The position numbers and the translations under genes were made by a program. DNA of 64,000 nucleotides, from assembly GCA_028867755.1 (NCBI GenBank), contig JAGWFT010000001.1:784727-848726 (forward strand), read 5' to 3'. The DNA is from Nitrososphaerota archaeon. GTDB taxonomy: Archaea > Thermoproteota > Nitrososphaeria > Nitrososphaerales > Nitrosopumilaceae. The notes below the pieces were generated by a model. It was not told where the DNA came from. It saw only the letters and a list, made by a program, of their open reading frames with translations, and did not search any database. Below, piece by piece: positions 52,916 to 54,331 of the stretch; position 1 is the first letter of the stretch; each line of letters opens with the position of its first letter.

Positions 52916-54331
52916 ATGTCATCCAGAGACAAGACAATTGAAATAACTGGCGAGTCACCATTTAATCTTACATCGGGAGTCTTTGAGGTACAAATATCCA
53001 TTTGTGATTATCCACCTTCTCCAGAGGACATAAAACGAAGGAATTTTCCGGTCATTTGGAAAGATAATTTCCATCTGCGAGTAAAAGACAAAAAATTCAC
53101 CCAAGTTCTTGGCTCTACAAAAAATCCAATTCCTGACTTTGTCTTTACACGAGACTCTGTTTGGCTTGTAGTCCTAGATCAGTTTTCCTCAATTAGTTCT
53201 ACTTTTCAAGTTGACGTACCAAAGATTTCAGATGATATTACAACAGTTCCTAGTTCTCAAAAAGATGAATTGTCTCCAAAGAGCCAAAAATCATCTCCGG
53301 AATATCATTACCCTACTCCAGGTGCTCCAGGTCCACGTGGTCCTCAAGGACAGCCAGGAGTTCAGGGTCCACCCGGTTCTCCCGGACCACAAGGTCAGCC
53401 AGGTCCGCAAGGCATGCCTGGTCAATCAGGTGACAAAGGCCCTCCTGGTCCTGTAGGTGACAAAGGTCAGCAAGGTCCACAAGGTTCTCCAGGTGATAAG
53501 GGCGATAAAGGTGACAAGGGACCAACCGGTGACAAAGGTATAACTGGTGACAAAGGTCCGTCAGGTGACAAAGGTCCAAGAGGTGATAAAGGTGAAGTTG
53601 GTGAAAAAGGTGACAAAGGCGATAAGGGAGACAAAGGAGAAAAAGGTCTTACTGGTGAATTAGGTCCTCAAGGTGATAAAGGCCCAACAGGCCCTCCGGG
53701 TCAGTCTGGAGATAAAGGCATTCTTGGTCCTCCTGGTGAAAAAGGACCCAAGGGTCAGCCAGGTCCTGTAGGTGATAAAGGACCATCTGGTCCACAAGGT
53801 CCTCAAGGTGATAAGGGGCTAACAGGTCCTCAGGGTCAATCAGGTGACAAAGGCCCACAGGGTCCGCAAGGTCCTGCTGGCGAAAAAGGGCTAACAGGAA
53901 TTCCTGGTCCTCAAGGTGAAAAAGGTCCAAGAGGCTTACCCGGTCAGCTAGGCGAACAAGGCCCAAGGGGTCCACCAGGTCCACAGGGTCCACCAGGCCC
54001 GCAGGGAATTCAGGGTCCTCAAGGTGATAAAGGTCCACTAGGACCTCAAGGCCAACCAGGAGACAAAGGCCCGCAGGGAGTTCAGGGTCCTCAAGGTGAA
54101 AAAGGGGTTACAGGTCCTCCTGGGTCGCATGGAGACAAAGGCCCACAGGGTCCGCAAGGTCCAATGGGCGAACAAGGCCCAAGGGGTCCACCGGGTCCAC
54201 CAGGCCCTTCTGGGCAACCGGGATTCTCAGAACAACAAAAGCAATTGATCACTCAACTACTTGAAATGTTGGCATCGAAAAATATGATCACAACAGAACA
54301 ACAGATAAAATTGCTAAGTTTTCTCTATTAG
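52916..54331 (+). CDS. Collagen-like protein with about 100 Gly-X-Y triplets
   Basis: 471 residues. 1-130: a globular beta-type domain without signal peptide or membrane helix ([34 protein letters not shown]). 136-435: uninterrupted Gly-X-Y triplets with many GDK, GEK, GPQ and GPP units. 436-471: a short helical tail ([13 protein letters not shown]). The charged GDK/GEK triplets can stabilise triple helices without hydroxyproline. Such proteins are known in bacteria and viruses, but a long one in an archaeon is notable. The missing signal peptide leaves secretion or surface location open. Confidence 0.88.
53321..54220 (+). repeat. Coding repeat of about 100 Gly-X-Y triplets
   Basis: In-frame 9-base units with GGN at every third codon. 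Units such as GGTGACAAAGGT and GGTCCTCAAGGT recur with varied codons, so this is protein-level repetition rather than DNA slippage alone. The antisense strand also shows long open frames, which are artefacts of the repeat. Confidence 0.9.

Follow-up and report, generated by a model that had tools for sequence, protein, structure and literature searches.

The closest described counterparts of the gene reported here are the collagen-like proteins Scl1 and Scl2 of streptococci (NCBIfam NF038330 and NF038329), whose repeats form triple helices without hydroxyproline, given a dedicated trimerisation domain (PMC8968730). A Gly-X-Y stalk is also found in collagen-like tail fibres of phages (PHROG 6320, 5073 and others; the E. 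coli prophage collagens, PMC3368898), and BclA and the Burkholderia Bucl proteins are prokaryotic collagen-like stalks to which further domains have been added. According to a 2015 count, 14 entries of Pfam's collagen family were archaeal (PMC4565658), and a 2022 review of prokaryotic collagens nowhere uses the word archaea in its text (PMC8968730). We found no paper that describes the present family as such, in a search that left subscription journals mostly outside; the sole relevant one (2026, PMC13037477) reports LPXTG-anchored collagen-like adhesins that are highly expressed at low salinity in Ca. Nitrosotenuis chungbukensis MY2, one of them being detected in the proteome.

The gene lies in a window of 64,000 nucleotides (the whole stretch of DNA analysed) from a genome of the ammonia oxidiser type, whose nearest named relatives put it within the Nitrosopumilaceae, in Candidatus Nitrosotalea or next to it. 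Its product resembles Scl1 and Scl2 in having long, charged Gly-X-Y repeats with proline at X, an expected independence of hydroxyproline and a domain outside the repeats that is presumed to bring the three chains into register; unlike them, it has a folded domain that is unrelated by family search, its proposed clamp is C-terminal, and a signal peptide and LPXTG motif are missing. The likeness to phage tail fibres is confined to the repeats, whereas the archaeal N-terminal domain has no viral relative and the gene belongs to the chromosomal core. BclA and the Bucl proteins, which were set apart on the basis of their descriptions, differ in their end domains and in their surface location.

Architecture of the protein

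The collagen-like gene occupies positions 52916..54331 of the forward strand, stop codon included, and encodes 471 aa; it starts with ATG and its reading frame is shut directly 5' of this codon, as is usually the case for collagen-like genes of the same genus. The whole protein scores 172.5 bits against PF01391 (Collagen), well over the cut-off of 27.2. It consists of an N-terminal domain (residues 1-103; 52916..53224), a linker that varies between relatives (residues 104-135; 53225..53320), 101 uninterrupted Gly-X-Y triplets (residues 136-438; 53321..54229) and a C-terminal tail (residues 439-471; 54230..54328), a layout shared by the relatives (N-terminal domain of ~100 residues, variable linker, triplets, tail of ~33 residues). 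An earlier note on this DNA had placed the triplets, about 100 of them, at residues 136-435; the run is indeed unbroken, with its end at residue 438 and a count of 101. The abundance of GDK/GEK and GPP/GPQ that the same note remarked upon is borne out by 20 GDK, 6 GEK, 9 GPP and 19 GPQ triplets. Position X is occupied by proline in 44 triplets and by aspartate or glutamate in 30, and position Y by lysine (27), glutamine (25) or proline (20), the net charge of the stretch being +2.

The N-terminal domain is confidently predicted as a beta sandwich (monomer prediction, mean pLDDT 88.6, pTM 0.80), and its alignment across relatives has a mean column identity of 60% with nine invariant columns. 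It had been called unfamiliar, and the searches of Pfam, NCBIfam, PHROGs and PDB agree, none giving a significant sequence match; on this evidence it would be a new head domain outside the known families. The best Pfam match, DUF6657, reached E 0.0028 in one member, too weak for use, and the best PDB structure match, SgrA (E 0.13, TM 0.49), gives no identification.

The tail, already noticed as short and helical, is predicted as a helical hairpin (monomer prediction, mean pLDDT 89.7) and is conserved over ~33 residues with a mean column identity of 69%; wherever found, it occurs once per genome. These features would fit a trimerisation clamp. A SHOCT-type reading of the tail was rejected: neither the tail nor its consensus has a Pfam match even at E 10.

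A hydropathy scan of 80 family members, the window protein included, detected no signal peptide or membrane helix, which extends to the family what had been reported for the single protein; the most hydrophobic window across these members is a strand of the N-terminal domain. The LPXTG motif is likewise absent from the window protein and the 11 relatives checked. The simplest reading of these sequences is that the protein is probably cytoplasmic.

Conservation of the Gly-X-Y stretch

All 70 complete relatives have unbroken triplet runs, ranging from 68 to 185 triplets with a median of 118. In 11 comparisons of the gene with homologues that also have 101 triplets, between 43 and 82 of the 101 glycine codons differed synonymously and none non-synonymously, whereas at X and Y the encoded residue was altered at 36-147 of the 202 codons in equal-length comparisons. 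Since glycine codons vary synonymously only, while X and Y codons change residue, the comparisons argue for purifying selection on glycine at each third position; the run, unbroken in 70 relatives and without loss of a glycine codon in 11 comparisons, is far from what chance would produce. The K-G-D/E pairs showed no enrichment over shuffled triplet order, and axial salt-bridge stability therefore does not appear to have been specially selected.

Some loci depart from the common pattern. In genus g42, whose genomes are reduced (~0.8 Mb), one member (L060) retains the N-terminal domain and the tail and has a long linker and a much shorter triplet stretch that includes unread bases; in another (L079) the N-terminal domain is kept, the linker is again long and the gene is cut by a contig end. 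In a third case (L087, single-contig genome G101) the collagen-like frame is in several pieces, through sequencing errors or decay.

Distribution and genomic context

A search with the N-terminal domain identified the gene in 205 of 250 Nitrosopumilaceae genomes, 122 of 131 good genomes and all 22 genera, as a single copy across the family. The family genomes shown without a match are many-contig assemblies, and each listed single-contig family genome carries the gene. With a profile built from 74 members, 192 of 400 genomes and 22 of 66 genera matched in a sample of the order, the matches listed being all Nitrosopumilaceae; in a sample of the phylum, 60 of 398 genomes matched, in 13 genera, all again from this family. 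No genus outside the Nitrosopumilaceae matched in either sample. Taken together, these counts identify the collagen-like gene, on sequence grounds, as a near-universal single-copy core gene of the Nitrosopumilaceae and as a probable innovation of this family. The archaeal collagen-like protein of the earlier note is encoded at a conserved chromosomal locus, in the core genome of its family.

Collagen-like triplets were found in just one further gene of the source genome, which encodes an HtrA/Deg-type protease (36905-38140, reverse strand) with an N-terminal hydrophobic segment, ~10 triplets and then protease and PDZ domains. The whole protein scores 26.4 bits against Pfam Collagen, just under the cut-off; unlike the core gene, it has a short triplet stretch and lacks the family's N-terminal domain and C-terminal tail. 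A genome of the Nitrosotenuis group contains a collagen-bearing frame of 2518 aa (G246:C1:1250929-1255236) that is positionally unrelated to the core gene.

The collagen-like gene is flanked by conserved neighbours: a divergent TPR-repeat gene (51642..52787, reverse strand) 128 bp away and a convergent gene downstream for a DRG-type GTPase (54994..56094, reverse strand). The former is divergent in 106 of 113 loci, mostly 80-150 bp upstream, and the latter lies downstream in 89 of them, the 113 loci including some repeated genomes and many loci cut by contig ends. No secretion gene was found among the conserved neighbours. The TPR gene also occurs in related families that lack the collagen-like gene, beside other genes in the loci read; judged by this distribution, it is older than the collagen-like gene. 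Its occurrence in those families also led us to reject the TPR protein as an exclusive partner.

Upstream of the gene is a box, AAATACARAAATAC, common to most genera. In the window it reads AAATACAAAAATAC and occupies 52882..52895 of the forward strand, from 34 to 21 bases upstream of the ATG; it is a direct repeat, AAATAC-AA-AAATAC, and most genera have it at nearly the same distance from the start codon. A sequence within three mismatches of AAATACARAAATACTT is present in 72 of 83 loci and 18 of 22 genera; random windows gave 7 hits out of 432, and a few of these may coincide with a real box. Searches of four genomes for the 14-base core gave a single exact copy in each; exact 14-mer copies are rare anyway, and the conservation of the box is therefore the stronger argument. 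A box ending ~20 bases before the start codon would suit a TATA-type promoter element from which an archaeal transcript starts without a leader. The box is likely to be the core promoter element of the collagen-like gene and may be a regulator site as well.

Other features of the window were noted in passing. Convergent to the collagen-like gene, 54532-54669 (reverse strand) encodes a 45-aa protein made almost entirely of Lys, Arg, Ala, Ser and Thr (MATKKRTKKAAKRRSAPKRR...), which by its composition looks like a nucleic-acid-binding protein; of the 42 relatives whose sequence extends far enough, 13 have small Lys/Arg/Ala-rich ORFs downstream of the collagen-like gene. Two neighbouring proteins of ~430 aa that look secreted (25818-27095 and 27280-28578, forward strand), in whose translations repeated Ig-like/PKD-like stretches were recognised by eye, are possible surface proteins. 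A tRNA at 18153-18248 (reverse strand) was detected by Rfam and missed by ARAGORN; it is 96 bases long, whereas the model has 71 positions, which suggests an intron.

Discussion

Based on the architecture, conservation and distribution presented here, we propose, with confidence that we would call evenly balanced, that this core single-copy collagen-like protein works as a homotrimeric intracellular rod, registered by its C-terminal tails and binding through its N-terminal heads. Three chains would be registered and nucleated at the C-terminal helical hairpins and would then form a continuous triple helix ~87 nm long (303 residues at ~0.286 nm per residue), or 58-159 nm across the family; at the other, N-terminal end the three beta-sandwich heads would bind a partner, and the molecule would act as a stiff spacer or scaffold. 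We infer the triple helix, the trimer, the clamp and the cytoplasmic location, the homotrimer nucleated at the tail by analogy with Scl1 and Scl2 (PMC8968730). What the heads would bind, and whether the process served is cell shape, envelope support or another, is a guess.

A role in cell shape is possible because the presence of the gene tracks a contrast in morphology, albeit a single phylogenetic one: cells of Nitrosopumilaceae are reported to be rods and those of Nitrososphaeraceae coccoid (PMC13037477), and no copy of the gene was found in Nitrososphaeraceae in the order sample. A collagen-based internal skeleton is nevertheless improbable in our estimation; in this reading the ancestor of the family would have acquired a triple-helical rod of ~60-160 nm in the cytoplasm, and its descendants would have retained it, as an aid to their slender rod shape. 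Lysyl oxidase (PF01186) was considered as a cross-linking partner and rejected; it is patchy in the order (9 of 121 genomes) and was not found in the source genome.

The earlier note had left a fibre, a sheath component and a cytoplasmic rod side by side. That none of 80 members has a signal peptide or membrane helix favours the intracellular rod over the others without proving it. Counting against an intracellular rod, the characterised prokaryotic collagen-like proteins named in the literature consulted are nearly all surface proteins, as are most of the bacterial ones covered by the 2022 review (PMC8968730). The protein may instead leave the cell without a classical signal and build up fibres or a matrix, either between cells or at the S-layer, its heads binding the S-layer or another surface. 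The collagen-like "adhesin" of Ca. Nitrosotenuis chungbukensis, which is tied to a low-salinity surface response and is present in the proteome, is also in line with such an export, if it is not another protein (PMC13037477). It may be the same protein as the core gene product; the MY2 orthologue of the core gene (L140) is without LPXTG, and if the two are identical the name "LPXTG-anchored" is wrong. Export to the surface is rendered unlikely, though still worth serious consideration, because 80 members show neither a signal peptide nor a membrane helix or anchor, 11 members checked have no LPXTG, and the conserved neighbours include no secretion gene.

The selection on glycine bears on a different alternative, namely that the Gly-X-Y stretch is an extended or disordered linker that joins the end domains without forming a triple helix. 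A plain linker would need no glycine at every third position, a rule without exception in 70 members, nor glycine codons that change synonymously only, and we consider this reading quite improbable. Descent from the tail fibre of a virus or prophage, with the gene as a remnant, is contradicted; the earlier note had named a viral remnant among the cases that would overturn its own reading. The triplets do match many PHROG tail-fibre profiles, but through the repeats, whereas the N-terminal domain has no PHROG match (E <= 0.1), nor any match to phages, plasmids or viral contigs; viral structure models give weak matches only (best E 0.0056, TM 0.37), and the chromosomal locus, with its housekeeping neighbours, is conserved across the family. 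Such an origin is very improbable. As for the LPXTG-anchored Scl-type adhesin suggested by automated naming, its probability is close to negligible: the best NCBIfam model of the whole protein is indeed Scl2/SclB, but the score of 248 bits is below the cut-off of 325, as are those of nine relatives, the best-matching stretch sits in the repeats, and LPXTG, signal peptide and membrane anchor are missing.

Although archaea are considered to have few collagen-like proteins, the gene for one of them is a single-copy part of the core genome of the Nitrosopumilaceae, ammonia oxidisers of ocean and soil that form one of the most abundant archaeal families and include the main ammonia oxidisers of the sea. 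Its C-terminal tail could serve recombinant collagens as a natural clamp. If the protein is indeed a cytoplasmic rod, the collagen fold would here be put to an unusual use inside the cell, joined to a compact tail and a head domain that is new, and there would be a testable route to how the Nitrosopumilaceae build their cells.
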